From contig OX463780.1 of assembly GCA_949825025.1 (NCBI GenBank), positions 38,730,979-38,794,978 on the forward strand: DNA of 64,000 bases. Direction: 5' to 3'. How positions within the stretch are numbered: the first letter of the stretch is position 1; every line of letters begins with the position of its first letter. The notes under the pieces are model-generated. The model did no database searches and was not told where the DNA came from. It was given only the letters and a program-made list of their open reading frames with translations. Both the position numbers and the translations under genes were made by a program. This DNA is from Siphlonurus alternatus. Lineage: Eukaryota; Arthropoda; Insecta; Ephemeroptera; Siphlonuridae. Of this stretch, positions 465 through 62,522 are shown one piece after another.

Positions 465-3400
465 CAGCTGGCATGAAGGGTTTGAGAACTTCAGGCACCT
501 TCACCCCCGTCTCAGTCTGGTACGTTTCGAGAATGGCGCAGATGACACGAGTGGTGGCACACATTGTGGCGTTCAGCATGTGCACATACTCCGTCTGAGG
601 AAGAACAAGAACATTGGTTTATACAAATTCAGAGTTTATTTTGTATACTATTTGGGACCTCTGATGAAAAGTAGTCTAAAGTTGAACTATATTTAGTTTA
701 TACAGGAAACAAAATTTGATTCTGCTTAAAAATTTAAATTTATTTTAAATGATGATTGATTCATAGAAAGCTACGTAATTGCAGCAGAGTATCAAATACA
801 ACAAGACATCAATGCCTATTAAATATCCAAGTGTGGCAAGATGTATGGGGACAGTCTGTATATATTTCGGATTTAAGAGCTGTCGTCTGCTTTATTAAGT
901 GAGTGCAATTATGAGCTTTATGTTTTACCGATTTACAGCTCATAATTACACTCACCTGATGTAGCAGACAGCTCATTATTGTGGATGATTGTGGTAGGGC
1001 ATGCAGATAGCTCATTATTATGGATGATAGACTGTATGTAGGTTCAAGGCCACAAGGCTGCTTACCGTTGCATTCATCTTCTTGGTCTGGCCAAATCGAA
1101 CCAGCAGACGCCTCGCCTGGTAGTCAAGACAGTTGCTGCATGAGACCAGCTCACGGAATGCACCTGTACAACAAACATGTATACAGTATATGCATGAGAG
1201 GGATGGTCACTAAATAATAAATGGATATGAGCAATGTTTGAATTTATGGATAAATAACACATGTTTTTTTTCTTTATAAATCACAATAATTATTTTTTGT
1301 CAGCCTCCAGCCAGCTTCATTGTAACTACTTCAAGAAATCCTATTCTTTTATCTTTAGATATTCTTTAATCTCACAAATTATAAATGTATTGCACACAAA
1401 AGTACTCTTCAATAAACACACATTGTTATTAAATTTTAATACAAACTGCTGCTGTATGCTCACCTGAGCCAGGGAACCAGGCCTCGAGGTCCAGCTTCTT
1501 GGCCGCTGCATGGTTGAGGGCACCGGACACAATGTTAACGATCCGGTAGGCAATGCCGAGCTCTTTGCAGAAGTCTTCCGCGTTGCTGATCATCTCGTCC
1601 ATCATCTCCCAGGACTTGTTGTCGTGTGGTGATGTGATGCAGAACTGCTCCACCTGCACAAGACTCAACGTCAAGAGAGACCCACCACTCATTCACGAAT
1701 CACAGCAGACATGACGTCTTCTAAATTATTAATGCTCATACGTCAAGACTTGTAAAGGAAAATTGATACAATATATTGACCTGCATGGCAATTTTTTATT
1801 GCAAAAACAAAGAGAGAATACTAAATTATATTACTAACAAAAATAAGAATTATAAGAATTTTTTCGTTTTTTTTTTAGCCCCAGAACTATTTTTAAAAAT
1901 TATATAAGGTTCTGCAAGTTCTGTTGGCTTCACTGGATCCAATAAAAAGAATTGGGCCTCAATGCTTATTAGTACCTCTAGGGGGTGTGGCTGCACTTTC
2001 AATATTTTTTTAAAAATAATTCCTGAATTAAAAAAAAAAAATAAAAAAAATAAATAAATAAGTAAAAAAAAAAATCAGAGTATCATAATTTGGCACCCTC
2101 TATTCATTTCTACAACATAAAAAAAGTCCATTCAAACTTTCAAACAAATACATAAAAAAATTATTCTACAATAGGTAACACATTAATTATTATTTTACAC
2201 ATTAAAGAGCTTGCTTATATAATTAACAGTAAAACATAACAAATTTAAAAGACCACGAATAAATATGAATAAGGTATAAAATGACTAAATAAATATTTTA
2301 CGTAGCTGTCTTTACTTGCTAAAACATAATCCTCAATTTTATTTTATATGATTGTGTTCTTATGAAAAGTGATCAGCTTTGAAAGAAAAAAATAATAATA
2401 ATAATTCGTACAATTTCAACGCTTGCGGTGGCGGTTCCAGGGAAAAAAAATTATGGTAGTCTATTTGGTCTTTTGTCTTTTGGATAATATTAATAGAAAT
2501 TTATTTTTTTTTCTCTCCAGTTTTGTACCCACCTTCTGGAACTGATGCACTCGAAAGATGCCCCTGGTGTCCCGGCCGTGAGAGCCCACCTCTTGACGGA
2601 AGCAGGTGGAGAGGCCGGCATAGCGGATGGGCAGAGAGCTCTCAGGCAGCCACTCCCCGCGGTGGAAGGCAGCGATGGGCTGCTCCGAGGTGGCGATGAG
2701 ATACTTCTCCTCCGTTTCCTTGTCCCCGCTCTTCTCACTGCCCTTGCCAATCACCTGCAAACAGGTAAGGTCAACATCAATACCTCTGTGGTTAAATGTA
2801 TATGGTTTCTTTCAATCTGAGTTATGTTGTTATGATACTTTATCTTTCTGTTGCTAAGAGATGAGACTACAGAGACAAATTCAATCTCAAACAAATTTAT
2901 TGTTCATTCTGTTCAGAGACACAAAACAAAATGACTTCAATTCAGTATACTGTAATATAATGTATATAAAAAAATTCAATATTATTTTTTAGTGATGGGA
3001 AAGATAAATGACAAGTTGTAGGACCACTCTCACATTTGAACAGAAGTACATAACTAATTACCTTGTAGAGTTCGTCATCAAACTGTGAGAGCTGGGCGAC
3101 CTCCTGCATCACCTCCTTCCGCATGAAGAAAGGTGTTGAGAGAGGTGTGTACTTCTTGGCACCAAGCTTACGCATGGCAAGCTGCACCAGGGCCATCTCC
3201 AGGAACACAGCTGCACCCTGTGCATTGGAAGCTGTTTGTTACCAATTCTCAGACTGCATAGACTGACAAGTGATTTAACAGAATGAATAAATAAATACTG
3301 TAAAGTAAATAAATAATAGCCAAATGTTATGATTTAATTGAAATCCTTGATAAAGAGCAATGTGCCTTATTAGTAACAATTACTGACCATGAGGTAGTAG

Positions 3401-6400
3401 CCTCGGCCCCCAGACACGACTGCCCCCCTCTCTCCGTCCATGCCGTCAATCATACAGATCAGGTCCACGTGGGAGTACTTCTTCCGCACTGCACAGTCGC
3501 CAAACGTGCGCTCCACACGGTTCTCATCCTGCAACATGGGCCATCATCAAGTCAGCAAAAGGGAAATCAACGTGGAACAAAGAAATTGAAAATTAGTGAC
3601 AATCAAGTTCTTCACAAGTCTACTGTGCATATTACATGCTAATGCCAGAATTACCTTTCTCTAATCTCATTACTGAAGATTTAAATAAAAACAAAAGCTC
3701 AAACGGCTAAACTTCTTATAAAGACAGAAAAGAATTAAAAATGTAAATTGTATGAATATATTTGGTGAAATATTATACAGTCTAAAGTTTAATAGTGACA
3801 CTACTTTGCACCATCACAAGTATAAGCAACCACTGTATCACCTCATTGTCGCTGATGGGCACGGAGGGGTGGGTGATGTTGCCAATCTCTCTGAGAGCAT
3901 TGTTGCGTCGCTTCTCCGTCTCCAGCAGCTCCAGGTCGTTGGCCACGATGCCCTGGTCGATGAGGACTCGCACTCGCTTGATCTGAGTCACCGTGAGGGC
4001 GCGTACCTGCTCCACCGTCACGTCTACCAGCCCCGCCTCCAGCCCGGGGGGAAGGGTCTCATCAGAGCCAGCAGCCTCCTTCTTCTGCGGACAGACGGTA
4101 CGGTTAGTACGAGGCATTAGCCACCACGTTACGTTTATAGTATTCAATACATTATATTGCACAGTCCTATAGTACAGTAGCTTTGAAAGTTGTAAATTCT
4201 TTCCAACTGTCAAAATTAACTCAGGCCATTTTTTTGTTATTTAAATATATATTTTTTTTAATTTAGTAGTCTAGCAAATACAATTATTAAAAGATATTTT
4301 CAATTTAACTGTTACACTATATGCATGCAGTGAAACATGCAGTGATTCTATACACCAATTTAGAATCCTACGCTAAATTTTTATTATGTACGTGCAGTAG
4401 AATTTTTTTTAAAGTTGATGAGAATTATTATGAGCTAACATATTACTTGCAACAGTAAAATAAATAGTAGGGGATGTGAATCATTCAATGCAGAAAACCA
4501 AGCTCACAACACCCACACAGAAGATGTTAGAAAGAAATAGAGAGAGCACCTGGGAGGGAAAGAGCTTCATCTCGTCACCAAAGCTAGCGATATGTGAGGC
4601 CCACCGAGAAACATTGGGCAAAGCTTGATACGCTAACTTCTGCACAGCCTTCAACACTTGAGTATCTGCCTGGGTTGGCTCAAACCCGTCTACGTAACTG
4701 TTAGAGGCCAAATGTTCGTTGAGACTGGCGAGTCCAGTCTCACTGCAGAACACAGAAATGTCCAGACCCTCTGGGGCCTCAGTCTTTACTTCATCTTGCT
4801 TTGACTTCCTGCTTTTCTGTAACAAATTACAGTGGAAGATTGACAAACACCAAAACAAAGCCACCATGTCATGCGCAAGAGAATTAAAAAGGAAAAAGGA
4901 GAAAGGAAAGGAGATTTTGTATAATTATGTGTGTCTAAAGATTTGTAAAAAAATAAATTAATAAAAATAAAACAGAAGGGGGAAAGTATGTACTTATAGT
5001 TGTACAGTATAAAACTTTAACAGATATAAAATAAAATTTAAAAAAAAAAAATGGAGCCTTATAAATTAAAATTTTCTATGAACATCACTCATGAATACGA
5101 TATTCTATTCTATAAGTCATAGTCATATAAGTCATAACATATGGTATGCATACTGTATCCAGTATCCATATATTGTATGAATGATCTTCACAACACTGTG
5201 TACTGTACATGTCATAATGACACTCTCCTTCTGTAAACATTACCTTCATCTTATCTCCGATTTCTTTGCTGCAAAGGTTTTTCAGCTTGTTCCATGTGTC
5301 AGCTTTGTGTCGAACTGAAACATTTAATTATTGTTTTTATTAGCATACAGTATAGCTTTCACAGAGCTATATGTCATATGCAATAAATACACCATAATAC
5401 CAAATCTTCACTGGCATATTGTTTGACAGCTATACTGTAGTTCCTCCATGCTGAAGTATGTATATAATAAATATTTATTAAAAATTATGTATTCTTATAA
5501 ATATAATTAATATGCAAATGAACTGTATGGGTAATATGTATGCATATGGGTATGATATGCATAAATAATATAGGATATTGATAATTATGATACAGTATGC
5601 GAGCGTGGCGCAGTGCATTGACCGGTTCTCGTTAGATCACCGAAGTCAGGCGTGGTAAATTCGTCTTGCTTTCCACCCAGTGCAGTGACGCACTTGTGTG
5701 TGGTTCCCCAGGCTTTGGACATCGCTTTGGTCCATTGAGAAAAAGTAGAGGTGTCCGTCCTGACTGAGGTTTTCGACGGTTCCCTCAGTCTCACCTCAGC
5801 GAATGCTGGGACGCGTAAGCATGCAGGCCATGGCCACTATCCGTTCCCTATCTTATCCCTACCCAGTACCCCGCTGCGAGCTGTAAGCTCTTAGGGGTGT
5901 ATCCTTGTAAAAAAAAAAAAAATTATGCATACATACAGGTGTATTGGTTTGTACAGTATGTATAATATATATTATAGGGGGTTGATGTAACCAGCAAGTA
6001 TGCATATTATGCAGAACTACATGAAACAAAGGAGACACATCAGCTAGGTCACACAAGTAACTTACACAGGAGTCACATGCAGGAGTGCAGAGGACATGCT
6101 CTGAAACCCTAGCTTTAACCCTACATGTGTGTACAGTATGTACATACTGTATGCATTTATTATGCATATATGCAGTGCATCCTGTACAGGCATACGGGGC
6201 ATACCATACAGTACATACAGTATGTATATTGTACCGCCTGCACACCCTGTGTATGCATACACCACCTGACGAAAACTTGAGACAAGTCTGAAGCTATTGA
6301 CAAGGGCATGAATATATTGGGGCAACTTACGCTGTCTCCACTTCGTGTCCTGCTCAATAACCGTGTCCACGAGGGCCACATTCTTGAACCGCGACCCTTG

Positions 6401-6466
6401 GTTTGCGCGAATCTTCTCAGGGTTGCCTCCCTTCTCGGCACGAAACAAGTCAAGATCCAACACCAT
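465..6466 (-). CDS. SARS1: Seryl-tRNA synthetase, cytosolic, 3'-truncated by window edge
   Basis: Charges tRNA-Ser with serine in the cytosol (class II synthetase). Exons, transcript order: 6331-6466, 5244-5314, 4550-4816, 3842-4084, 3388-3528, 3062-3217, 2533-2754, 1464-1653, 1066-1163, 465-594. All junctions are GT-AG and keep frame, giving 551 codons plus one base. The start [14 protein letters not shown] matches the conserved SerRS N-terminus. The coiled-coil arm follows in exons 1-4. The class II core comes next: motif 1 near [20 protein letters not shown], motif 2 in [25 protein letters not shown] sequence (positions 2533-2754), and motif 3 near [11 protein letters not shown] in the last visible exon. 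The C-terminal tail lies left of base 1. Oddity: exon 3 is an extra 89-codon cassette inserted in the arm (separate entry). Without it the length up to this point is close to animal SerRS. Identity is very secure. Confidence 0.96.
1783..2130. repeat. Degenerate copy of the TTTTTATTGCAGAAATGG palindromic MITE
   Basis: It shares, with many changes, the end block TTTTTTATTGCA, a CTATTTTTAAAAATTAT block, and the mirror end ATCAGAGTATCATAATTTGG then CACCCTCTATTCATTTCTAC. The intact copies lie at 19449, 22826, 41366 and 50896. Located in a SerRS intron (1654-2532). Confidence 0.55.
4550..4816 (-). other. Cassette exon encoding an EF1B/GST-C-like domain inside SerRS
   Basis: This 267-nt exon (89 codons) has a clean acceptor (TTACAG) and donor (CAG|GTGCTC), and both boundaries are phase 0. 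The exons on each side also meet at phase 0, so it can be included or skipped without a frameshift. It starts with a basic linker (KSRKSKQ). The main part, with [20 protein letters not shown], then TQAD, then RWASHI, matches the N-terminal GST-C-like domain of elongation factor 1-beta and the alternative N-terminal domain of cysteinyl-tRNA synthetase in pattern: LN-HL-SY--G--P-QAD----------RW--HI. In those proteins the fold mediates assembly with EF1 subunits or other synthetases. Here it replaces the tip of the tRNA-binding coiled coil, residues about 70-158. The function is inferred; the domain match is seen directly. Confidence 0.87.
5596..5923 (+). mobile_element. SINE with a 5S-rRNA-like head and poly(A) tail
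   Basis: About 325 bp, lying in SerRS intron 1 (opposite orientation to the gene) and ending in a run of A. The head (about 5610-5655) reads CCGGTTCTCGTTAGATCACC then GAAGTC-AGGCGTGGTAAA. This matches the 5S rRNA segment CGGTTCTCGT--GATCACCGAAG and, after a short deletion, its TCGGGCGTGGTTA region. The body has CCCCAGGCTTTGGAC, TCCATTGA, a CCCTCAG stretch and AATGCTGGGACG, then a short tail AGCTCTTAGGGGTGTATCCTTGT and poly(A). A second copy is at 7935 and an older relative at 36943. I infer a SINE3-type (5S-derived) element; transcription and reverse transcription would depend on a partner LINE. Confidence 0.75.
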
Positions 6467-7831: not shown

Positions 7832-7837
7832 TATAAT

Positions 7838-7932
<95 letters not shown>

Positions 7933-7934
7933 TT
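7832..7934. repeat. (TTTA)n microsatellite
   Basis: About 25 uninterrupted TTTA units directly abutting the 5' end of the truncated SINE copy at 7935. Confidence 0.97.
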
Positions 7935-8182
7935 CGTCTCGCTTTCCACCCAGTGCAGTGATGCAGTTGTGTGTGGTTCCCCAGGCTTTGGACAACACTT
8001 TGGTACATTGATAAAAAGTAGAGGTGTCCGTCCTAGCTGATTGAGGTTTTTCACGGTTCCCTCAGTCTCACCTCAGCAAATGCTGGGACGCGTAACAGGC
8101 CGTAGCCACCATCATTTCCCTACCTTATCCCTACCCATTACCCCGCCGCGAGCTGTAAGCTCATAGGGGTGTATTCTTGTAA
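7935..8182 (+). mobile_element. 5'-truncated SINE copy, same family as 5596
   Basis: It starts inside the element at TTCGTCTCGCTTTCCACCC, so the 5S-like head is missing, and then follows the 5596 copy closely through CCCCAGGCTTTGGACA, the CCCTCAGTCTCACCTCAGC block and the AGCTCATAGGGGTGTATTCTTGT tail. Its A-rich tail has become an AATA microsatellite. Confidence 0.85.
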
Positions 8183-8184
8183 AA

Positions 8185-8269
<85 letters not shown>

Positions 8270-8271
8270 AA
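8183..8271. repeat. (AATA)n microsatellite on the SINE tail
   Basis: About 20 AAAT/AATA units following the SINE tail. It is the reverse complement of the upstream (TTTA)n, so the two arms could fold back around the SINE. Confidence 0.97.
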
Positions 8272-8868
8272 AATAGAGCTTATTTTTTTAAGTTCTGAAT
8301 AATTTTCAAATTGTAAAATCTTTATATCCTTATATTTATTTATTTTATTTGCAGCGTAAAGCCGGAGAAGGATCATCAGTATCTTTTGGCTCTGAAAGAC
8401 CTGAAATAATCAGAATAACGTCAATTTTCAAGTTTTAATTTTTTATAAAACTTTAAAGTTTCATTTCAATCGAGATTGAGATGCTTTTTTATTATTTTTG
8501 TCCAGAGTTTTTTTTTTTTTTTTTTTTACGATTCATTTTTCCCCTTATACAGGAAACTTATCTTCATTTTATGCAAGCAAGTAGAGTTAAAGTTTTCTTT
8601 TTATACGAAAAGTCGTATGCAATAAATAGAAAGAAAAAAATAGTATCGTGTTCAACTGCATGGCTTTAAAATATCCTAAAAAAAAAAAACAAGCAACGTA
8701 CATAATAATAAAATACGCTCTCTAGGGTACATGGAAGCAACATTAAATACAAAAGTAAAATCGTTTCACAAAAATGAAAGTAATTTTTTGCCATTGTGAG
8801 TCAGTATTTTATTATGTTAAACCCTGGCAACGCACATGTTTATTATTTGCATATTATCTCAGAGAGGC

Positions 8869-14300: not shown

Positions 14301-16191
14301 TTTGTCGTATTATAGGAAGACTTGGTGTAGGAAGTTTGGTTGTGTAAATGCAGTCCAGTGAGTTATTCAATAGCCTTTGAAAGATTTTATTACTTTGTCA
14401 TATTATTTTACAAATAAAACTATAATATTAATTATAGACAACGTATTACAATATATTATATCATATATCACATGAGGATATGAGGATATTTATTACTGCA
14501 TGTATTTATACTGTACAATATATTTTCAAATTATTAATGTTGACTTGGATACAAGTAGTAATCCTTATTAAAAATTGGATACTTTATATATGGCTATCAT
14601 ATTTTTAGAATTACACATAAAAATACTGTCAACACACATAATTATGTTAATTTCAGTCTTATAATGTATTCTATATTATATTATGGTAAATAAAGTTCAA
14701 GTAGACCGGGTAGACGTAAAGAAATTCAAATTTAATTGCAAACTTTTAGAAACCCCATTGAAAGGTACATTTCATGAAACCACGTTTTACATCGAAAGGA
14801 CCTCTGGAACAGTGTGGAACGTCATGCAGGACGTAAATCTAAATCTTGCAGGGCTGGACCCGGCAAGCGTGCTGTACGGCAACGCCCCGCTGGACGAGCG
14901 GCTGGACGGCACGGACGCGGAGTACGTGGAGGTGGTGCACACCTCGGGAGGCTACCTCGGCTACAACGACCCCATCGGACAGGTGGATTTCTTCCCCAAC
15001 GGTGGTACCTGGCCACAGCCGGGCTGCTTCATGGACTTCGTGGGTAAGGTCGTGAAGGACTATGAAAGAGCCTTATCACTTTAATAGCAATTAATGCAAA
15101 TCATTATGAGATTAGGAAATTAGGAAGCAAGTAATATTGTACTATACATTAATATATATAAGATATTTTTATCTTATTAGAATTGTTTTTTGAGAGGAGT
15201 GCGTCATATTATACTTCAGCCTATTAAACTCATTAACTGAATGCCAGTAATGTTACACTATTTGGGATCATCAGGTACAGTTAGTAGTGTATAACGTCAC
15301 TTATGATCAACTGAAGACATGAGTGGCAAATGACGTCACGTTTCAGCGGTGTGCAGCCACCGGCGGGCCTACTACTACTTTGCGGAGGCGCTGCACGGCG
15401 AGGCCGGGTTTCGGGCCGTGTCGTGCAGCAGCTTCAGTGACTTCCAGCAGGGCCAGTGCGGCAAGGCGAGGCAGCTTTTCCTGGGCAGCGACGAACTGCC
15501 CGACCTCAACAGGTGGGTGTAAGGGTGCTAATTATTGGAGTCGTGGAGATGAGAGCAACATCTCATTTATGTTATTATTTAGACGGTAAAATTATTTATT
15601 ATTAAAATGTGAAATAATGTTGCAAGTCAAGATCAGGGCTATATGTCATGTATATTTTCACCCTCGTACATATTGCCTTGAGTACTGATGAGCGCGTACA
15701 ATTGAGAGCCTAATGATCAAACGAGGATAAAAGCTATATTCACTCTATGCAGGTTGTTATCAGTGAAATGAGATCAAAATCCAATTTTTATACACCTGTA
15801 ATTGCTTTTATCCTAAGCTACCCCAATTGATCGCCAGATCTTCAACTATCAAAGGTCAAATCAAGAAAAGGTGTCTAATCATCTTATAATACATTTAACT
15901 TAATCTAAAACAATGGACATACATGATTTTCTATACATCCCATTTATTTATACATTAAATACATCCTATTTTTAATATTGTGGTGTGGTGGAAAGAGCTG
16001 TGATGAAATTTACTTGCAAACATAATTGAAGGGTTTGCTTGGTTTTTATATAAACGTTTCAGCAACAATGATCACCTAATGTATTGTTATAAATTTTATA
16101 CACTTGTTTCAGTGCGCGAGGGACTTATTTCCTAGAGACGAACTCCGATGAACCTTATGCGAGAACAGACAGCAGAGCGCGCGAGGAGTGA
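10901..16191 (+). CDS. Lipase A: secreted pancreatic-lipase-family / phospholipase A1-like enzyme
   Basis: Exons 10901-10970, 11513-11741, 12764-12915, 14014-14265, 14852-15043, 15347-15512, 16113-16191. All are GT-AG and sum to 1140 nt, 379 residues. The first exon is a hydrophobic signal peptide (MTVKSSLSLAAAILALTLL). The alpha/beta-hydrolase core has MLIHGFGDG (oxyanion loop), the nucleophile elbow GFSLGSH (Ser about 212), GLDPA (Asp about 237) and CSHRRAYYYFAEA (His about 303), so the triad is complete. The lid between the two cysteines (PGC ... VCSH) is only about 7 residues, as in short-lid phospholipase A1s rather than the roughly 23-residue lid of true pancreatic lipase. I infer phospholipid or galactolipid hydrolysis outside the cell. 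First gene of a three-gene tandem array. AATAAA at 16497. Confidence 0.92.
11742..12763 (+). other. Lipase A intron 2, including a short MITE
   Basis: AT-rich intron without coding sequence. It contains a TATATA palindrome near 12410-12440 and the GGGCATTCACAAAGC-type element at 12551-12703. Confidence 0.7.
12551..12703. repeat. Short MITE, GGGNACATTCACAAAGC ends
   Basis: About 150 bp with inverted ends GGGAACATTCACAAAGCA and TGCTTTGTGAATGCCCC-like sequence; inner blocks (AACCTA...TTCTAGGTTAAATC / GATTTAACCCGG...AAACCTAGG) also mirror. Relatives are at 28535 and, as one end only, near 46850-46915. Confidence 0.75.
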
Positions 16192-21800: not shown

Positions 21801-24800
21801 TCATAATTTTATGCTAAAATATTAATATGAATGCCTCGAATTGACTTCCTTTATTCCTTACAAACGCTGTTATCGTAATTATTTGCAACTATAATATATA
21901 CTCGTATGGTCGCAGGGCCATTGAGAACTCGCCATACCTGCTGGACCTTAGCAACGAGCAGTCCTTAAAGGACGCACCCTTCGTGGAGGGTCGACCGGTG
22001 AAGCTGCTCATCCACGGCTACACGGGCCACCGTGACTTCTCACCGAACACTGAGATACGACCTGGTAGGCTGTGAGACGAGCTAATGGACCGTAGAACGT
22101 TGCTGAATTGTACAATGCCTTTCATATATTATGCCAGATTTCACTGACATGTTTTGAAATGATAAAACTTATCTATAGAGCATATAATTATGATGTATCA
22201 AAAGTTTAGTCTCCAATCATTGACACAATAATTAAAATTAAACCCATGCAATGATGCACAAGCACATGTAGGATTCACTTTTCATCCTTGAGAGCATCTC
22301 GTAAAAAATTAATAATAATCTATTTTAAATCTTCAAGGTACAGAAAATGTATATACCTGCCACTCCCACCCTCCCTCACAAAGGGCCCGATCACCCCCCA
22401 GTCACGTGGTTATTGCAGCGCTGCTGGCGCACGATGAGTACAACGTCATCTCGGTGGACTGGGGCCGCCTCGCCGCGCCACCCTGCTACATCCAGGCCAC
22501 CAGCAACGTGCAGCTGGCCGGCACGTGCACCGCGCAGCTCGTCGACACGCTCGTGAACACACGTGGATTCAAATTACGCAATATTCACGTCATCGGCTTC
22601 AGTCTTGGGGCCCAGGTGGCGGGACAGCTCGCGAGGTTTCTGACAGTGGGGAAGTTGCGTAGGATCACAGGTGGGTTGATAAACAATCGACTGAAAAATA
22701 TTCTATTGTTAAATTAAAAAGTTTATGTATTTTTCAGCTTGTAACAATGATTGATTTAATAACAACTATATTTTTGACTTATATTTATTAAACTTCTTTA
22801 TTATATAAGCATAAATATAAAAATAGAGTATCGACCTCATTTTTTTTATTACAGAAATGGATAGAGCGTGCAAAGTTATGCTACCCTGAAATTTTTCAGA
22901 TTTTTTAGAGCCCGGAAACTATTTTTAAAAAATTATTGAAAGTTCTTTTTGTGACGTCACGAGACGCCGCTCATTAACAAAAAAATATATGACTTGCCGC
23001 CTCGTGACGTAACAAAAAGGACTATCAATAATTTTTTAAAAATAGTTCCCGGTCTCAAAAAAAATCTGAAAAAAATCAGGGTAGCATAACTTTGCACGCT
23101 CTATCCATTTCTGCAATAAAAAAAAAAATGAGTTCGATACTCCATTTATAAATTCATATATAACGCATTTTTATTGTAATTGCAGCAGCAATTTCATTGA
23201 ATGTACAGTTGCACAATTAAATATATTGTATAAGTAGCTGAAGATAAAAAAAAAATGTACCTACCCACTTTTCACTGCAGTTCCGTATCGCTTATTATCT
23301 ATACTATTAAATCAGGCAGTTCCAGTCATAAATAACATGCAAGTTGCTTTACCACGCACAAGGACACTTTTAACTTTCAAAGAGTGTGTCACTGTGGCAG
23401 GCCTGGACCCCGCCATGCCGCTGTTCGCGTCCCTGTCCCGCTCCTCCGTGCTGGACCGCAGCGACGCGGCCTTCGTGGACGTGATGCACACCAACGCCGG
23501 CAACAAAGGCACGTTGACAATTTGAGATCTTTATGCTAGTAGTTTTCTCGAACGTGATTAATTGGATAAGCATAATAATACGTCATGGTATAAATTAATT
23601 AATGAAACGTTTATACGTACACAACAACATAGCAAATTATAATTATATATATACGGTTATATTATATATACTTTGCATTCGTTGAGATCTCCATCAGGCT
23701 CCAGTCCTTACAATTTTAGTTGTTATTTTTTTTACGCAGATGAACGAAATTTTTTGTTACTTATGTTGTGTATAATTATATTTTACTATGTAATACGGAT
23801 TAATATACGAGTATATTTTATTCAATAATATCATTGTAAAAAATGGTGTAATTTAAGTGTATAAATATATAATGTTTCTCAAAAATTATAAATGTATTGC
23901 AGATATATAAGTAAATAAGTATATTTAACAACAATTCTTTAAATTATATAGATGTGTATAAAATGTTAAATCTCAATTCTGATAATCTGCTTTTAAGCAA
24001 GATAATTATACTGTATATTAAATAGGCGTGTTTTTGTTTTGTACAGGCAAGTACGGGCCCAACGGCCACGTGGATTTCTACGTGAATGGCGGTGCTCACC
24101 AGCCGGGCTGCTCGGGTCCGGAGGTCTACGGTACGTGGTGAACATGAAATAAATAGTTACATTGAATTACTCATACTTATGTTATGAATATGTTTTTTTG
24201 TACACATCCACGTGATTTTCTGTTTGCAGACTCGGCGAGCTGCTCGCACGGCCGCGCCCCCATGTACTATGCCGAGTCCATCTCCAGTCCAAGTGGCTTT
24301 TGGGGAAGAGAGTGCAGCAGCTGGATGAGCTACAGAACGGGACTGTGCAGCTGGACCGGCGCCAGACTCGCCATTATGGGGGAGAATGCTGACCCGAAGT
24401 GAGAACGACACACGAAGAAAGCATATTTCAATTGTTTAAAGAATCTCATGAAAGATTAAGAAGTTGAAATATTTCTTTTAATAAATGATAATGAGTTAGG
24501 AAATTATGAGAAAAGAAAAAGTTCATATTGTTCATAAATTTTAAATCATAATATATAATATTATGTAATAGCAGGAGCTTTAAAGAAGTAAATTTGTGAC
24601 GTAATATAATATGCAGCTCTATAATATTATATACAAAGATAAGCAGAAATTCTATATTTATAACGAATATAATTATATTAATATTGGTATACTTTTAATT
24701 TCTGCGTAAAGCCAGCGCCAGGCGTGGATCCAGGGGGGGGGGGAAGCTGGGGGGCTGCAACCTCCACTCCTCCCTGAAATGTTGTATTTAACATGGGCAA

Positions 24801-37400: not shown

Positions 37401-40217
37401 TTACTCCGAAACTTGATGATATGAACGGGCTCTTAATATGGTCTGTAATCTCTAACTCCACGTACATGCTTCTCAGGGAGACGCAAGAAGAGCCGGAGCT
37501 GCTGGACGTGACGGACCCTCTGTCGCTGATCGCCTCGCAGTTCAACGTGTCACAGAAAACCAAGGTGGTCATCCACGGCTTCGGAGGCGGCCGCGACCTC
37601 TCACCCAGCCCCGACATGCGCGAAGGTGAATATCAGATATTGAATAATCATCGCTACAAGGCATGCAGTTAGGCCAAGGGATAATGACAATGCCAACTTT
37701 TTATTTCACTGCATTCCATGCTCTTCTCTGAAAACTAAACAATATTTAAAATATCAAAATACTTAAAGATATAAATTGTTTGATTAACCAACTAACGTTC
37801 TCCTGCAATATTGCAGCGTACTTCACGCGTGGCGAATATAACATCATCATCGTTGACTACGGCACCCTGGTGAAAGAGCCTTGCCTCAGCCAGGTCGGCT
37901 GGGGACCAAGGTTCTGCGCACGGTGCATTGCGCAGCTCGTGCAATACCTGAACCGCGTGAGCGGCACGCCACCTTCTTCCTTACACCTCATTGGATACAG
38001 CGTGGGTGCCCACATCGCAGGACTCGTCGCTAACTATATGCACGAGGGCAAACTCGGCAGGATTACAGGTAATTAATAAAACGTGGAATGGTGTTATTTT
38101 AATAATACCTTCAAAATTAAAAATAATACAAAATTTAAAAACAAAAAATCTATTGATTTTTTTTAACTTAAATATTTAATATTTAAATATTGCAGCCTTA
38201 AAATGGGATTTATATTATTTTTTAAGATATACCACTGGTAAATCACTGAGAATGCAATGTAAATCGTTTTTCTCAAAAATATTTAAGGACTTTAATAACC
38301 TTAAAAAAAATTAATTACAATAATTATCAGCACATTACGTGATAACAGATTCATTTGTATCGAATTTATCGTATATTATAGTGATTGCTGAATTATGTGA
38401 TTGTTCACATAATTCATCAACTTGCTCCACTGTTATCGCGGCAGGTCTGGACCCGTCCGTGGTGTTTTACCAAGGCTCCAATAGCTCCCGCGACCTCGAC
38501 CTGAGCGACGCACACTTTGTAGATATCATCCACACGGGCGCTGGCGTACTGGGACAGTGGGGGCCAAATGGACACGCTGACTTCTATGTTAACGGCGGTA
38601 CCTCCCAGCCAGGCTGTTCAGGAACCATCTTTCGTGAGTGCAAACTGCAACTTGTTTTGTTTAATAAAAGTTCATTTCTAAATTTTATATACTAAATAAG
38701 TATCAAAATTTTGAAAGATTGTTGAAATATGAATAATTCCCGTTTTTTTCTCCAAATAAAAATTAATTTCGACGAATAGGATAATTAATAAGTTTAAGTA
38801 TAATATAATGATAAATAATTTAATGTGTTGCTTAAAAAATTAAAAAAAAAAAAAAAATCCTAGCCTGTTATGCAACCTCTTCAGCATGCATGTATTGCAG
38901 GTTGCATAAACATTCTAGGAAAATTCTTTAATTTTATTTTTTTTTGCAATGTGAACTACAGACAATAAATTGCAATACTTAAATAATTCAGGCATGATTA
39001 AAACTCAAAAATTCTTATTTGTTGGTTCCAGAGACATTGTCATGTGACCACACTAAAGTGACACCATACTTCATTGAGTCCATTACAACAAAGAAGGGGT
39101 TCTGGGCTGCTCCCTGTGCCAGCTTCTTCAACTACATGTTAGGCTGGTGCAGTCCCAAGGAGGAGGAGTATGTTCTCATGGGAGAGGACACACCTCACAC
39201 GTAAGAAATTATGAGACTTAAATTTGGGTCATGGTATACTGTTACATATGCAGCGTGAAAGGAGGGGAAGAGAAGTGGTGATAAAGGTGATTTTCCCCCT
39301 GCCCATTACAGCTGCCCAAAATAACCTCTCTCCTTTCTATGCTTCTAAAGAAGTATAAAATTTAATACCATATAGGATGACACTCGGGGGGGGGGGGGGT
39401 AATGGGGGTATATCTCTCTTCCTCATCTCTTCCAAAAGTTAAGAGCTGACAGGCATGGATCCGGAACCAAATCTTAAGGAAGGAAAGGGGCTCCCCCAGC
39501 CATCCCCTGGATTCATGCCTGACAGCTGAATCTAGCTATCTATAGCTTGAATAGATTTATTCCTTTCACATATATAACAGAACAAAGAGAGAATGAATAA
39601 TTTAATTAATTTGTAATTTAAAATAGAATTTTTGCAGTGCGTCATTAAATTGTTATTAAATTAAATAAAATTGTCATTAAATTGTTATTATGTTAATTTA
39701 GAAATGTAGATGATGCACTAATGTTTTCATGACTTTCAATCTAAATCAGCGCTGCAAACTGGGTAATATAATGTGAGCGATTCGAGCTCCATTGGGTAAA
39801 AGCTGCAAGGCAGCTAGCCTTTGTTTCAAGTATCATCATGAAAGTCATGACAACTGCATTCATTGATCCTTATAATGTGTATGTTTTATATATACATAAA
39901 CTGATAGTCTTAAATGCTTAATTGAACATGACTTATGTTTCAGAGCAAGAGGTGAATATTATCTAACAACTAATGCAAACAAGCCATATGCAAAGGGTTT
40001 CCCCTTGGTCAAGAAAGAGCCTCAGCGACAGCCCCAGCAGAAGCGACAGCAGCCGCAACGACCACAACAAAAGAGGCAGCCTCAGCAAGGTCAGCAACAG
40101 CCACAGCAGAGCCAGCGACAGCAACAACAAATTCTGAGACAGCAGCAGCTGAGGCAACGGCAACAACAGCAACAAAGCCAACAACAGAGACAGAAGCGAT
40201 GGCCACAGAACTATTAA
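28311..40217 (+). CDS. Lipase C: secreted pancreatic-lipase-family enzyme with Gln/Arg-rich tail
   Basis: Exons 28311-28392, 36527-36689, 37477-37625, 37817-38068, 38445-38633, 39032-39200, 39944-40217; 1278 nt, 425 residues. N-terminal hydrophobic segment (YLAALAVITLLLPQ) is a likely signal peptide. A basic, Gln-containing stretch follows (QQGAAKRPTRQQQEPPRKKP). Motifs: VVIHGFGGG, GYSVGAH (Ser about 193), GLDPS (Asp about 218), SCDHTKVTPYF (His about 285); triad intact, lid about 9 residues. Exon 4 is 252 nt, as in A and B. The last about 68 residues, from about 357, are nearly all Gln, Arg, Lys and Pro in irregular QQQ/RQ/KRQ runs, absent from A and B. Intron 1 is 8.1 kb. Third gene of the array; AATAAA at 40756. 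Confidence 0.92.
28535..28676. repeat. Short MITE, GGGGCATTCACAAAG ends
   Basis: About 140 bp: left AAGGGGCATTCACAAAGTCT and TAAGGCCACATTTAAGGCT; right AGCCTTAAATGTGGCCTTAA and GGCTTTGTGAATGTCCCTTT. Nearly the full length is a hairpin. Same family as 12551-12703. Confidence 0.88.
31185..31495. repeat. Degenerate palindromic MITE copy
   Basis: The left end TTTTTTATTGCAGAAATGGA then TAGAGGGTACCAA and the right-hand blocks ATAATTTTTTAAAAATAGTT then CCCGC and ATCAGAGTAGCAATTTGGTA are retained; the middle has diverged and a long A run is inserted (about 31427-31453). Confidence 0.7.
34668..35904. mobile_element. 1.24-kb terminal-inverted-repeat element with possible spliced mini-ORF
   Basis: The left end CCCTGACTCCACGGCACAGT (then AGGGCAC) is matched inverted at the right end (GTGCCCAACTGTGCCGTGGA then GTCAGGG). 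The interior holds exon-like pieces on the plus strand: an open block ending at AAAGAAG|GTAAGA (about 35147), a block about 35220-35350 entered at TTTTTTACAG and ending GTG|GTGAGT (includes MRGPIIAFLSPAQPAP), and a final block from about 35416 ending in TAA near 35534. The joined frame is continuous but not a protein I recognise. Another inner palindrome (CGAACTGTGATTTTCACAGT then TCGG) is near 35700. It could be a non-autonomous transposon carrying captured host sequence. Confidence 0.6.
36943..37110 (+). mobile_element. Diverged SINE-core relic
   Basis: Shares the body of the 5596 SINE: GGCTTTGGACCATTG, TTCATTGACAAAAG, CATCCTGGCTGAGGTTTCCA, CCCTCAGCC and AAATGCCGGGATGG. Neither the 5S-like head nor the same tail is present. 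Located in lipase C intron 2. Confidence 0.65.
39385..39535. repeat. Inverted repeat with CAGGCATGGATCC ends, next to a poly(G) run
   Basis: GACAGGCATGGATCCGG (about 39449) and CCCTGGATTCATGCCTGACA (about 39506) are inverted copies about 75 bp apart. A 14-base G run lies at about 39388. Probably a remnant of the GGATCCACGCCTG repeat family. Located in lipase C intron 6. Confidence 0.5.
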
Positions 40218-53286: not shown

Positions 53287-55287
53287 TTAATCACTTATTG
53301 AAGAACTATTTTGTTTAACTGGTAATCCTTTTATCGTTGAATTATGTCTCGTTTTACGAGAACCTTCAGTATCAAGATCTAATTTTGGGTTAACTGAATG
53401 AGATAGAGCTGCAGTTTTATCAAAGTCAATCGTTGCATATCCAAGAGAAGTTTGAGTTGTTGCTCTCGGAGATTCGACAGGTGCCGCTGAACAAATAGAG
53501 CCAACGGGAGAAAGGGGAGTGGTTTGCAAACTGGGAACAGTATCTGTTCCTCGATCTAGGTCCAGAACAATGTAATTAACTTGTCGTATTGCTGCTCTGT
53601 GTTCTGCTGGGGGTGTTTCCATATTTGAAATCGGAGTAGGAGTAGGATGAGAAACAAGAACTGCTCGAGGCTTTAGCGGAATATCAAGTTCACCAGGACC
53701 TAAACCTAAATTAGCATAACAGTGTCCTTCATAATCTATATTACTTTGTGTTGTTGCTGGTAAATCTAATTCTTCTTTATCTCTACTATTTTCTGGTTCA
53801 ACATTCATATATAAATGTAATTGTTCTGATTTTAATAATGCATCTAATCTTGCATAATTAGTTTCAGAATCATATGCTTGATACGGAGAAGTTGGACTTG
53901 TTGGACTTGTAAGATTCATATAAGCAATTGGACTTGTAGGGGTTCCTGGAGTAGTTAAAACAGCTGCACCATTATTCACAAGATCACCACTTGACTGTGA
54001 CATCGTCACAGTTGTACAACTGTCAATATTTGATGTAGCAGCAACACAAGTTCTTACATTATTATTAATTAAAGATTCTGCATCTAATGAAGCTAAAACT
54101 ATATCATTAGCATAGTAGACACTATTGGATGCTGGGGAGGGTAGAATTGAGATGGGGGATGGTGTTTGTGGACTAAGAGGTCCACTTGAGAGTCGTGAGC
54201 CACCGTTATTTTGTCTCAGGGTAATGCTGCGACTGGTACGGACTGGCTCCAGGTAGTTGGGCTCCAGTGGACTGTCGACCAGAGTACTTGACGAGGCGAG
54301 GCTTCCACGAGGCATGCTCGACGACATGATGGAGGGAGGAGCAGAGGTGGGCGTGGCAGCGGGGAACTCCCGTGAAATGGCATCGTCACCACTCGACCTG
54401 CTCTGTTGGATATGTGCCTGTGAATTATAATTTGTATAAGGAAAAGGCGTGGTAAAATTACATATATACAGTAGCTAATAAATTGCAAGTTGACTGATTG
54501 ATGTGGTAACATGAAAATATATGGACACCACGAACTTTCATCTGCTTTGTTGGTACGCATTACCATCAGGCGTGGATCCAGTAGGGGGGGGGGGGATGCC
54601 GAAATGTTAGATTTCACATGGACAATATAGGCATTTCCCTCACTCCAAATTTCTTTTTTAACATTGGCCTTATTATGGAAGCATCCCCCCCCCCTCCAAT
54701 TTTCATTTTGTTCTGCATCACACTGTAACTCCTGATGCTGCAAACGGGATGGCGAGTACAAGGGAGAGTGGTAACACCTTCGATGTACATATTTGGGAAC
54801 AGCCTTTTAGGGGGAGGGTGATCACCCTATCATAAATCCAAGTATAGTGGGTATAATACAGTATCATATTCTGTATGCCTCTTCACCTTTGTATCAACGA
54901 CTGTGGCAATCTCCAGACTATATATTTGTTTTTGTTTCTGTCACCAATTTATGCACTGAATTATTATTAATAAAGATCTATATACTTTACCTGCAGCAAG
55001 TTGAACAGATGTTCCGCTCGAGAACATCTGAATGCATAGATGCCGGGACCAGTTGGACATCTCCGCCCAGACTCAAAACTGAAAACTTCAGCATCAAAGC
55101 CATAGCGACGCAGACATCGTAGTGGCCACCTCACAGGTGATTTGCCTCTTTGATGAAGTATAAGGTCAGTTTCAGTGACCTCTAGTTGTCCCTGGCTGAG
55201 CACTTGTCCAGCATCATCCACATTCATAACATTGAATAAATTAGGGTGTAGGTCGTTGATATCGGTTTTGCTTGAGATACAGCCCAT
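53287..55287 (-). CDS. FRS2: FRS2-type FGF-receptor substrate / docking adaptor
   Basis: Exons 54991-55287 and 53287-54417, joined at phase 0; 1428 nt, 475 residues (vertebrate FRS2 is about 500). The start MGCISSK is an N-myristoylation signal for membrane anchoring. An IRS-type PTB domain follows, with FNVMNVDDAG, CLRRYGFDAEVFSFESGRRC and IYAFRCSRAEHLFNLLQ, all strongly FRS2-like. The long disordered tail has tyrosine motifs: YMNL, YMNV and YANL (YxN, GRB2 type) and YIVLDLD and YATIDF (SHP2/ITIM type). It should link an activated FGF receptor to Ras/MAPK signalling under the plasma membrane. The 5' UTR is spliced: acceptor ATATTACAG at about 55311 and a donor near 55515. The ATG choice is fixed by the myristoylation motif. 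Confidence 0.9.
54571..54712. repeat. Repeat with GGATCCACGCCTG-type end (copy 2)
   Basis: CAGGCGTGGATCCAGTAGGG, then ACATGGACAATATAGGCATT and AACATTGGCCTTATTATGGA with a C run. Same family as 24725 and 56131. Inside the FRS2-like intron. Confidence 0.75.
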
Positions 55288-55640
55288 ACTGGTAACATCA
55301 ATCTGTAATATTAAACAATATTTAGCAAAAATAAATAGTATGTATACGTATTAATAGTAAATATACATCTAAAACATTGAAGTTAAAATCATTCGTGGTG
55401 ATAATACAAGCTCAGCTGATTTGGAGTGACAGCAATAAAATAATTTTCTGTTCGTTCAAACTACGTAGTTTATATTGCGTTATAAGCACTTAACGACACT
55501 TAATTCATACTAACCATTATCTGCATAGCCAATCCATGTTGACAGAGTTGTAGATCAGCAAAAGGACGAAAGACGACTTTGTTCAAGGTGTTGCATGCAA
55601 GATGGCAGCATTCCGCGCTTCCGCGACTCTCCTTTTCCTC
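55288..55640 (-). promoter_or_regulatory. 5' UTR and promoter region of the FRS2-like gene
   Basis: The minus strand shows a 5' UTR acceptor (about 55311), an intron to a donor GGTTAGTATG near 55515, and a non-coding leader up to about 55600. GC- and CT-rich DNA from 55600 to 55860 is probably the promoter; it contains GCCATCTTGCATG (YY1-like). Confidence 0.45.
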
Positions 55641-56380: not shown

Positions 56381-57052
<672 letters not shown>

Positions 57053-58154: not shown

Positions 58155-61100
58155 TCACAGGCCGAACAGCTGCACGTTGACGTTGGGGTTCTGTGGTGAC
58201 CGCACCGAGACACTGCCTCGTCGGCTTACCCCGCCCGCAGCGCGTACCTGCAACCATATGTAATAGTTATTTATTAAAGTTATTTACTTGAACTGATTTC
58301 CTGGTTGAAAGGCTGAATAAGTATAAAACATATCTATATATCATGCTTCAATTAAATTAAATTGAAAATTTCATGGAGAACATGCCCGAAGAACACCAAA
58401 TTGATATCTATAATAATTTAATTATATATGTTCTTTTCTCACAGTTTTTATAGAATTAATTAATGAGATTGTGTTAAAGGCCTTCTGAACCTTTTCACAG
58501 TATTAAGTACACGGTTAGCTTTGCTTCAGTGTGATTCGGTTGCATATTTTTTTTTTTTTTTTCAGTAGCACAAATATCAGAGATAATAGCCAATGAAGAA
58601 GCACCTGTGACGTCACTCACGCTCATTCAGCGGCGACAATATAGGGAAATCCCTGCAAAAGATAGGTTCACTCCCGCTGCAACCACGGCCACAATTTTAC
58701 TTCTGGAATTTTGAAACTTTACCAGGGCAGTCTTGGTAATATTTGTCAAATAAACTGAAAGAATTTTATTGGTGGCGTGTGTACAGACTGAGTTATTGCG
58801 GTAGCAAGATAAGCTAAAAATTTAACATTGTTTTCCTATACAACATTTTCGCTCCTCTTTCTACCGCAATAACTCGGTTTGTATGAATGTCATAAAAAAA
58901 AAATCTTTCAGACTATTTGACAAATACTATCAAGACTGCCCTGGTAAAGTTTCAAAATTTCAGAAGTAAAATTGTGGCCGTGGTTGCAGCGGGAGTGAAC
59001 CTATCTTTTGCAGGGATTTCCCTATATTGTCGCCGCTGAATGAGCGTGAGTGACGTCACAGGTTCCTTTTCATCGGGTATTATCTCTGATATTTGCGCTG
59101 CTGAAACAAAAAAAAATTATGCAGCCGAATCACACTGAAGCAAAGCTTACCGTGTGCTTAATATTGTACAAAGGTTCATGAGGCCTTTAATATTAAATAT
59201 TATTATTTATTATTCATCTAGAAAAATCAGAAGTAAAAAATATATACCTACAAAAACTTGATTAAATATTATATTTAAATTTAATTGTTTGGGTGCATTG
59301 AATTATTCTTACCGTGTCGACAGCATGTATGACGCCGTTGGTGGCCATGATGTCACAAGTCCTGAGAACGAGTGGCCCCACGAGGAGCTCTCCACCTGGT
59401 CCCCTACGCAGGGGCAGCCTCGTGCCGTAGTCCGTACCTACGTGGTGTGTGAACGGCCAGTTGGGAGTAGCCACGGCGTCGCAGCACAACACGTCTGCAA
59501 TTCAGTCGAGCAACATCGTCAGTATATATTACAGTGACTGTGCATCACACAGTTATGACTTACCGGTGAGCACGTGCTTAGAAATGACGTGTTCTCTCAG
59601 ATCCTTGCTAGCTCGCATTTTCTCCAGATGCTCGGCGGGTATGCTCTCAAAGGCCTCGTCAGTTGGTGCCAATAACGAGAGTGGCGTCTCCTGCTGCTTC
59701 AGTCGCTCTTCGTAACGCGTGCCCTGCCGAATACGTCAGTTGTATGTACATATATAGGGAAACTCAGTATCACTTAATTGACCGCACTACAGAAAGATAC
59801 GGCATAGGGCACCAACGGCACAGTTAAACCTTGAGATTGTTATTATTTTTTCAGTGAAAAACATTCTAAATATATAAAATAACAAAAAATAACCTTAGGC
59901 GCTTATGTAAATTCACTAAAATGAGAATTTCTTGCTATTGCGTAAATGGCGTCAGTAGATACTACAGTTCAAGACTGATTTTTTTAAAAGTAATATTTTT
60001 TTCTGTAACATGTAATAATTCTGTTGACTCATATGTTGCTATTTTTTTATGTTTACATACATAAAAAAATAGCAACATATGAGTCAACAGAATTATTACA
60101 TGTTACAGAAAAAAATATTACTTTTAAAAAAATCAGTCTTGAACTGTAGTATCTACTGACGCCATTTACACAATTTATAGCAAGAAATTCTCATTTTAGT
60201 GAATTTACATAAGCGCCTAAGGTTATTTTTTGTTATTTTATATATTTAGAATGTTTTTCACTGAAAAAATAATAACAATTTCAAGGTTTAACTGTGCCGT
60301 TGGTGCCCTATGCCGTATCTTTCTGTAGTGACCGCATGCATAACTATAATATAATTAATACATTGAAGCAATGTTAAATTATATACTGCAGTTTCAAAGA
60401 TCAAAGAGCTTTACATTTTTGTATAAGACAATATGCTAACCTTGATCAATTCGAGCAGTATGGAGAAGCCTCCCTTCTTCTCGAGGACTGCGATCAGGTC
60501 TCCGGCGGGTGGTGTCATCACGCGGTCCAGCTCGTGCACCACAGCGCCGCAAGCAAGCTCGTCCACGTTGATAACACGTGCACACTGCACCGTGGCGCGT
60601 ACGGGACCAACGCCGAATGTGGGCATCTGAAAAGGCAAGATTAGTCAGAGCGTTTACTATTTTTTTATAATCCTCTTGCCAATGATTCAATTAATAATTA
60701 TATTCAGATCGATCACCTTAAATTTATAGTAAAATTATTTTAGATATATTATAGATAGACATGAAGAGCAATAAATTATTGTTGAATGTAAAACTTAAGA
60801 AATTGTGTTATAGCTTTCGTGTTCGTTAGTACGTAATGACTGTTAAGGTAATAAAAGTAATAATATATGATACCGGCGTTATTTCATTATTTCACTACTA
60901 TTTTTTAATCCCAATTTAGTAAAAAAATCCATTTTATTTAATTCAGATTTAGCCTGACACTCGAAGACAAATAACCAAACATGCATGATGAAAAAAATTA
61001 TTATGCAGAGGGTTTACACTCACCGTCTGGAAGAGGTTGAGACGTAAAGTTGCGTCCTGCAGCTGTGACTTGAGCACCAGATTGTTCTCGAAGTCGCACG

Positions 61101-62522
61101 AGCCGACCTCCGAGTGCACCACGTGGTACAGTAGAGTGTCTCGGCTCGGGTCCTCCTCACCCTTCTTCATGGCTGCTTCGGAGGGCGCGAACACCGTCAC
61201 GTTGCGCAGCGTGTCCAGCTCCTCCAGCATGCCTCGAGCTCCGAGGGCGCGCACCAGAGACTCCAGGCCACGGTCAGCGAGCGTCTGACTCACCGAACGA
61301 GCTGCAAATACGAATCTTAATTGTTACGGGTGTCTATAAATATATAATTATATGCATTGTTCAATACAGGAGAGCTGCATGCAATAAATAGCAATAAGCC
61401 AATAAGCACAACATAACAGTAAAGGCTATAAAATTATATTTCATGTGCATTATTTAAAATGGAAAACAAATATGACATGGTGGTGAACAGAAAATAATTT
61501 TGCTATAAATTACATTTCATCGACTTTGTTTGAGAGTTTTGTTAAAATATCGTGAAAAAATATATACAAGTATTACAAAACCCAGGTACTTTTTGTGGAA
61601 TTATTTTTATTGTCAAACAAGTTAGAATATGATATACTTGTTCATCTCTTTTGAAAACTCATACATAATTGGAATATAATTTGGCAGTCAATTTCTCACC
61701 TGACTGTGGCATCAACACGGCGTCTAGTAGGTGCAGAACTCCATTGGTGGCCGTGACGTCACTCTTGGTCATGACGGCGCCCTCGACGCGCACCTCGCCT
61801 TCGCTGCCCTCCACCTGACCTTGACCCTGACCTCGGGACATGCGCAGCGTCTCTCCCGCCAGGCTGTTGGTGCTCACTTCCCCGCGCACGCACGCCGAAC
61901 ACAACGTATGGTCCGCGATGTGGTGCCGTGCAACGTCTGCAAAAAGCACCAGCACGTCAGTCACATAGGTTCTCGAGAGAGACAATGTTTCTTAAGTTCA
62001 TATTATTGAATTACTTTAGAATTATTGCTTATTTAAGTTGCATTAAAAATATAAGCTTTTTTTTTTACAGCAAAGCAATTTAATTTTTTTTCTTTTTTTT
62101 TTTTTTACTGTTACTTGATATTTGTTTTTAATATGCAGATAAGAATTCCCTTGAAATTATAGAAAACAAAGATATGAACCTTACCCCTCTGCACTACAAT
62201 GTTTGTAAAGCTATAAATAAAATATAGCATCGGTTGGACGACACTCACTGTCCAAGCAGGCCTCTCCCTCCAGCAGACGACTCAACATCCCGGCGGGCAG
62301 TCGCTCGAACGCCGCGTCCGTGGGAGCGAACGCCGTCCAGTGTCCGGCCTCTTCGAGCTTTTCCCACAAACCAGATTTCTCCAACACTGCAAGACAACGA
62401 CGAGGGCACGTGATAAAGCCAAATGTGGGTCTTCGAATTGAACAAAGTTGTAAGTTGTTGATAAGTATAAAATCTGCGTAATATATTTTAGTAAATTAAA
62501 GTGCAATAAATGAAGACTGGGA

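Follow-up and report, generated by a model that had tools for sequence, protein, structure and literature searches.

Why should a gene for seryl-tRNA synthetase (SerRS) carry a domain resembling the N-terminal domain of elongation factor EF1-beta, on an exon that can be left out without loss of the reading frame? The question is raised by a 64,000-nt stretch of the genome of the mayfly Siphlonurus alternatus (contig OX463780.1, positions 38,730,979 to 38,794,978; hereafter the window), the minus strand of which bears a cytosolic SerRS gene with such a cassette exon. It has long been asked whether synthetases channel aminoacyl-tRNA to the elongation factor, and the work has centred mainly on valyl-tRNA synthetase (ValRS) and the multi-synthetase complex (MSC). 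Here, we describe the cassette together with similar exons in the genes for the glycyl-, tyrosyl-, threonyl-, and histidyl-tRNA synthetases (GlyRS, TyrRS, ThrRS, and HisRS) of the same genome and an EF1-gamma-like domain in alanyl-tRNA synthetase (AlaRS). This wider set is a stronger result than the SerRS exon alone and tentatively suggests an undescribed means of linking synthetases to the protein-making machinery.

The cassette exon and its domain

Ten exons of the SerRS gene join in a single frame (Table 1), with GT-AG at every border save the donor of the tenth; a C-terminal SerRS exon was found beyond the window (L010:9288-9395). Identity to the SerRS of Neocloeon, at 60 of 69 residues before the cassette and 340 of 393 after it, indicates homology to full-length cytosolic SerRS. 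The cassette (267 nt) has the splice borders TGTTACAG|AAAAG ... CCCAG|GTGCTC, and its neighbours meet in phase 0 whether it is included or skipped, neither product containing a stop. A preliminary description of this DNA had proposed just such a symmetric phase 0-0 exon, and its coordinates, strand, length, and phase all hold. The splice sites, which it had called good, are placed as described, but the donor (CAG|GTGCTC) scores -0.02, the lowest of 16 donors (the next scores 0.1) under an approximate matrix. A second copy of the domain was not found within the window.

Compared with the PDB, the 89 cassette residues matched human EF1-beta (5dqs_D; E 1.2e-8), the sole match at E<=1 among 177,635 distinct sequences, and a four-species profile of the cassette matched the same chain at E 2.5e-17. 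The best structural match of the predicted fold, which is GST-C-like and helical, was also 5dqs_D, and this chain ranked above every MSC chain in the structure comparisons as well as in the profile search. Judged by sequence and predicted fold, the cassette is a GST-C-like domain of the EF1-beta N-terminal type, as the preliminary description had recognized and as the structural comparison with EF1-beta that it suggested bears out. Plain GST ancestry as the closest relation was rejected because EF1-beta ranks above each GST listed, and a chance open frame as the origin of the cassette was likewise rejected on the basis of conservation and of the homology to EF1-beta.

The insertion point lies approximately between residues 69 and 70 of human SerRS. 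In a full-length model, of mediocre quality, of the SerRS of the mayfly Cloeon dipterum, the helices of the domain (within residues 86-144) fall between one helix at 31-79 and another at 187-224; the domain would therefore sit at the tip of the tRNA-binding arm, after the outgoing arm helix, in agreement with the location first proposed.

Similar exons in other synthetase genes

A search of the genome (455.7 Mb, 102 contigs) with the cassette yielded seven scored candidates and five matches at E<=0.001. All four matches outside SerRS lie in or upstream of the GlyRS, TyrRS, ThrRS, and HisRS genes, on the same strand, and each of these exons ends at a phase-0 donor. The results for the four genes are at the DNA level, from predicted exons joined. 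Every joined construct matched both its synthetase and 5dqs_D (E 4.3e-36 and 2.3e-12, respectively, for GlyRS; 8.1e-58 and 7.9e-12 for TyrRS; 3.4e-7 and 5.8e-12 for ThrRS; 3.1e-65 and 1.7e-12 for HisRS). The GlyRS exon (273 nt, phase 0-0) is internal, interrupts the protein near the position of residues 281-283 in 4qei_A, and, like the SerRS cassette, can be skipped in frame. The HisRS exon (294 nt) is likewise phase 0-0, and the ThrRS and TyrRS exons are N-terminal, each having its own ATG and then the first core exon in frame. Upstream of the TyrRS exon, the minus strand of L007 holds a 742-codon frame that looks reverse-transcriptase-like by eye.

Additionally, the Pfam family PF21972 (Arc1p_N_like), with a curated cut-off of 27 bits, admits the TyrRS (28.4) and HisRS (29.9) exons and fails to admit those of GlyRS (20.0) and ThrRS (20.2). 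A genome search with this family returned eight places at E<=10, two of which (the HisRS and TyrRS exons) exceed the cut-off; the remainder are the SerRS exon, the last AlaRS exon, and four further genes that we take, by eye, to be EF1-gamma, EPRS, an AIMP3-like gene, and a metaxin-like gene. The same search gave matches below the cut-off in 3 of 14 control genomes. It missed the GlyRS and ThrRS exons, so that six is the minimum number of synthetases concerned. The last AlaRS exon passes the GST_C cut-off, and a hand-joined construct matched human AlaRS (E 4.2e-29) and human EF1-gamma (E 3.9e-6); as read from these predicted exons, the C-terminal GST domain of AlaRS is EF1-gamma-like. The preliminary description dealt with the exon in SerRS; the domain is not peculiar to that enzyme, since four other synthetase genes have such exons in or beside them, and AlaRS has a GST domain of its own.

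Table 1. Features of the SerRS gene (window positions) and related features elsewhere in the genome
Feature	Position	Strand	Basis
SerRS exon 1, coding part from ATG	6331..6466	-	exon joining
SerRS exon 2, directly upstream of cassette, ends ...DKMK in phase 0	5244..5314	-	exon joining
Cassette exon, phase 0-0, 89 residues, EF1-beta-N/GST-C-like domain	4550..4816	-	exon joining, PDB/Pfam match, fold prediction
SerRS exon directly after cassette, starts KKEAAG in phase 0	3842..4084	-	exon joining
SerRS exon	3388..3528	-	exon joining
SerRS exon	3062..3217	-	exon joining
SerRS exon	2533..2754	-	exon joining
SerRS exon	1464..1653	-	exon joining
SerRS exon	1066..1163	-	exon joining
SerRS exon, last inside window; donor border ambiguous, GT one base further on	466..594	-	exon joining
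EF1-beta-like exons in or before GlyRS, TyrRS, ThrRS, HisRS genes	L006, L007, L008, L009	-	cassette search of genome
AlaRS with C-terminal EF1-gamma-like GST: DHHA1, linker, GST_C, stop	L026 (G000:C3:10120800-10130700)	-	PF21972 search, joined construct

Elsewhere in the window, open frames resemble, by eye, lipase exons, perhaps of one family (14665-15084, 22319-22717, and 38324-38695, plus strand), an FRS2-type adaptor (53287-55350, minus strand), and fasciclin (FAS1) domains (60949-61991, minus strand). Tandem arrays of ATTT, AAAT, and AT occupy 7836-7934, 8188-8275, and 56424-56602, and a similar interspersed repeat appears, again by eye, near 5640-5900 and 7930-8160.

Distribution and origin of the cassette

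Searching proteins for the cassette region produced a single match among 30 candidates, the SerRS of Ephemera danica (E 8.3e-24), the gene model of which is without the first exons and begins within the cassette; the Ephemera version in turn found itself alone among 116 candidates. With the arm region as query, 77 of 406 candidate proteins matched at E<=0.001. Two of these 77 are interrupted at the same residue by an insert: isoform X1 of Cloeon dipterum (86 aa) and L9F63_016260 of the cockroach Diploptera punctata (92 aa). Related inserts of the kind that the preliminary description proposed to look for in arthropods are therefore present in two further Ephemeroptera (Ephemera and Cloeon) and one member of Blattodea (Diploptera). 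Also among the 77 are the Ephemera protein and a contig protein, P0078, which carries the cassette in another frame (score 361, whereas 30 shuffles reached 174 at most).

Identity to the cassette of the window is 55/88 in Ephemera, 43/86 in Cloeon, and 33/87 in Diploptera; for the rest of the enzyme, it is 352/393, 338/393, and 300/393, respectively. By these figures, the cassette is evolving faster than the SerRS core. Across the four species, 21 alignment columns are invariant, the EF1B signature residues among them. A domain tree, in which one of six inner branches is well supported, groups the SerRS domains of the three mayflies together (99/98). The counterpart from the cockroach gives a better score against human EF1-beta (33/70 identical) than against the SerRS domain of any of the mayflies. 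A single old insertion, lost many times and changing more rapidly in the mayflies, would fit these data, and so would two insertions at the same site. Recent copying between synthetase genes was rejected: the exon surroundings share short or weak matches only, the longest being 104 bp at 71% on opposite strands, and the spread of the modules therefore looks old.

Diploptera has two annotated SerRS proteins (P0075 and P0005), on contigs of unequal size, one with the domain and one without. Possibly, the same choice between enzymes with and without the domain was made there through gene duplication.

Proposed tethering to EF1 and alternative readings

Because the pairing partner of EF1-beta is the GST-like domain of EF1-gamma, we infer an EF1-gamma-type partner for the modules as well. 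The SerRS exon would insert its domain at the arm tip, and this and the modules on GlyRS, TyrRS, ThrRS, and HisRS would attach to EF1-gamma or to its counterpart domain on AlaRS. Such binding would tether synthetases outside the classical MSC to the EF1 complex, from which charged tRNA could be handed to EF1A, and skipping or inclusion of the SerRS exon would switch between free and tethered enzymes with the same catalytic core. That EF1B-type GST pairing serves optional docking modules in this way, linking free synthetases with EF1 (or AlaRS), is in our judgement somewhat probable. Optional splicing, suggested in the preliminary description, is itself inferred from exon phase, the weak donor, and isoform names; the exon does keep the frame, but the labels (Cloeon ‘isoform X1’ with the insert, Neocloeon ‘isoform X2’ without) come from two different species and the support is indirect.

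The human synthetases outside the MSC include those for Ala, Gly, His, Ser, Thr, and Tyr (PMC9166799, in excerpt), and by that scheme all six carriers are non-MSC enzymes. Five synthetases drawn at random from 20 would all be non-MSC with a probability of 0.051, which is only suggestive. More tentatively, and with appreciable doubt, we consider a second multi-synthetase assembly in this lineage, for non-MSC enzymes, in which the five EF1-beta-type modules would pair with EF1-gamma or with AlaRS as a hub and splicing would set the tethered share of each enzyme.

Several observations weigh against tethering through EF1-type domains. Foldseek returned no match to the cassette model at E<=0.001, and the PF21972 match of the cassette (E 6.2e-6, 26.9 bits) falls 0.1 bit under the cut-off, by which rule it is not counted as a member. 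The Cloeon model is mediocre (predicted local distance difference test, pLDDT, 68.9; predicted template modelling score, pTM, 0.52), and the cockroach domain does not group with those of mayfly SerRS in the tree. The genome's own EF1-beta gene was not located by the PF21972 search, which had missed the GlyRS and ThrRS exons. The HisRS exon, being phase 0-0, needs an upstream coding exon, and the 9.9 kb that precede it contain no match to human HARS at E<=1. The TyrRS exon has an ambiguous acceptor, with two in-frame options, and an in-frame stop before its ATG, and can therefore be a start exon only. Finally, the insert is absent from 73 of the 77 SerRS representatives, including Neocloeon isoform X2 and the second Diploptera SerRS, so that insects in general do not need the cassette; such absence is weak evidence because each representative is a 90% cluster that may hide isoforms and because the cassette search missed Cloeon.

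The modules might instead dock their enzymes to the classical MSC, through the GST-type domains of AIMP2, AIMP3, EPRS, or MetRS. We consider this unlikely, given that the domains of all five carriers are closest to EF1-beta in the PDB and that no MSC chain ranks as high as 5dqs_D in the comparisons made with the SerRS cassette. Nor do we think it at all likely that the SerRS cassette mainly tunes the binding of tRNA-Ser or tRNA-Sec, or has another non-translational role, by way of the arm: its position lends itself to such a role, for the cassette immediately precedes insertion I (G75-N97), an element in communication with the active site (PMC10817482, in excerpt), but the module also occurs at unrelated sites in four other synthetases, and an arm-specific role therefore fails to explain the set. 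If the exon were a relic, seldom used or in decay and now functionless, this would accord with the weak donor (under the approximate matrix) and with the lack of the cassette in most insect SerRS; yet the frame has stayed open at the identities given above for Ephemera and Cloeon, the EF1B signature residues are invariant, and the Cloeon protein model contains the cassette, which makes a relic very improbable.

If tethering to EF1 is correct, a genome in which EF1-type pairing domains are borne by six free synthetases, in two or more cases on frame-keeping exons, would constitute a natural experiment in which the same enzyme exists with and without a tether. A search of open-licence literature found no title or abstract in which a GST or EF1B domain is connected with SerRS. 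In humans, a splice form of CARS1 reportedly carries an ‘elongation factor-associating domain’ (Kim 2000, NAR 28:2866, as cited). This form inhibits EEF1G (PMC9166799, in excerpt). The set described here would resemble it in that a non-MSC synthetase gains a GST-type stretch through alternative splicing, the link to EEF1G being that of CARS1. It differs from CARS1 in enzyme and insertion site and in comprising EF1-beta-type exons in five synthetase genes of one genome, a distinction drawn by description. The cassette is like the human EF1-beta N-terminal domain (5dqs_D) in sequence signature, length, and predicted fold, and unlike an EF1B subunit in being a single exon inside synthetase genes, without the exchange-factor domain. 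The GST domain of ValRS attaches that enzyme to EF1 and has been suggested to be restricted to Deuterostomia (PMC4394549, in excerpt). Tethering of a synthetase to EF1 by a GST-type domain is thus a feature of ValRS that is here only proposed, and for other synthetases, in an arthropod, and with mostly half-GST modules. WHEP domains are dispersed over TrpRS, HisRS, EPRS, MetRS, and GlyRS (same excerpt); the modules described here, a different domain by description, would, if correctly read, be another example of a single small module recurring in several synthetase genes.
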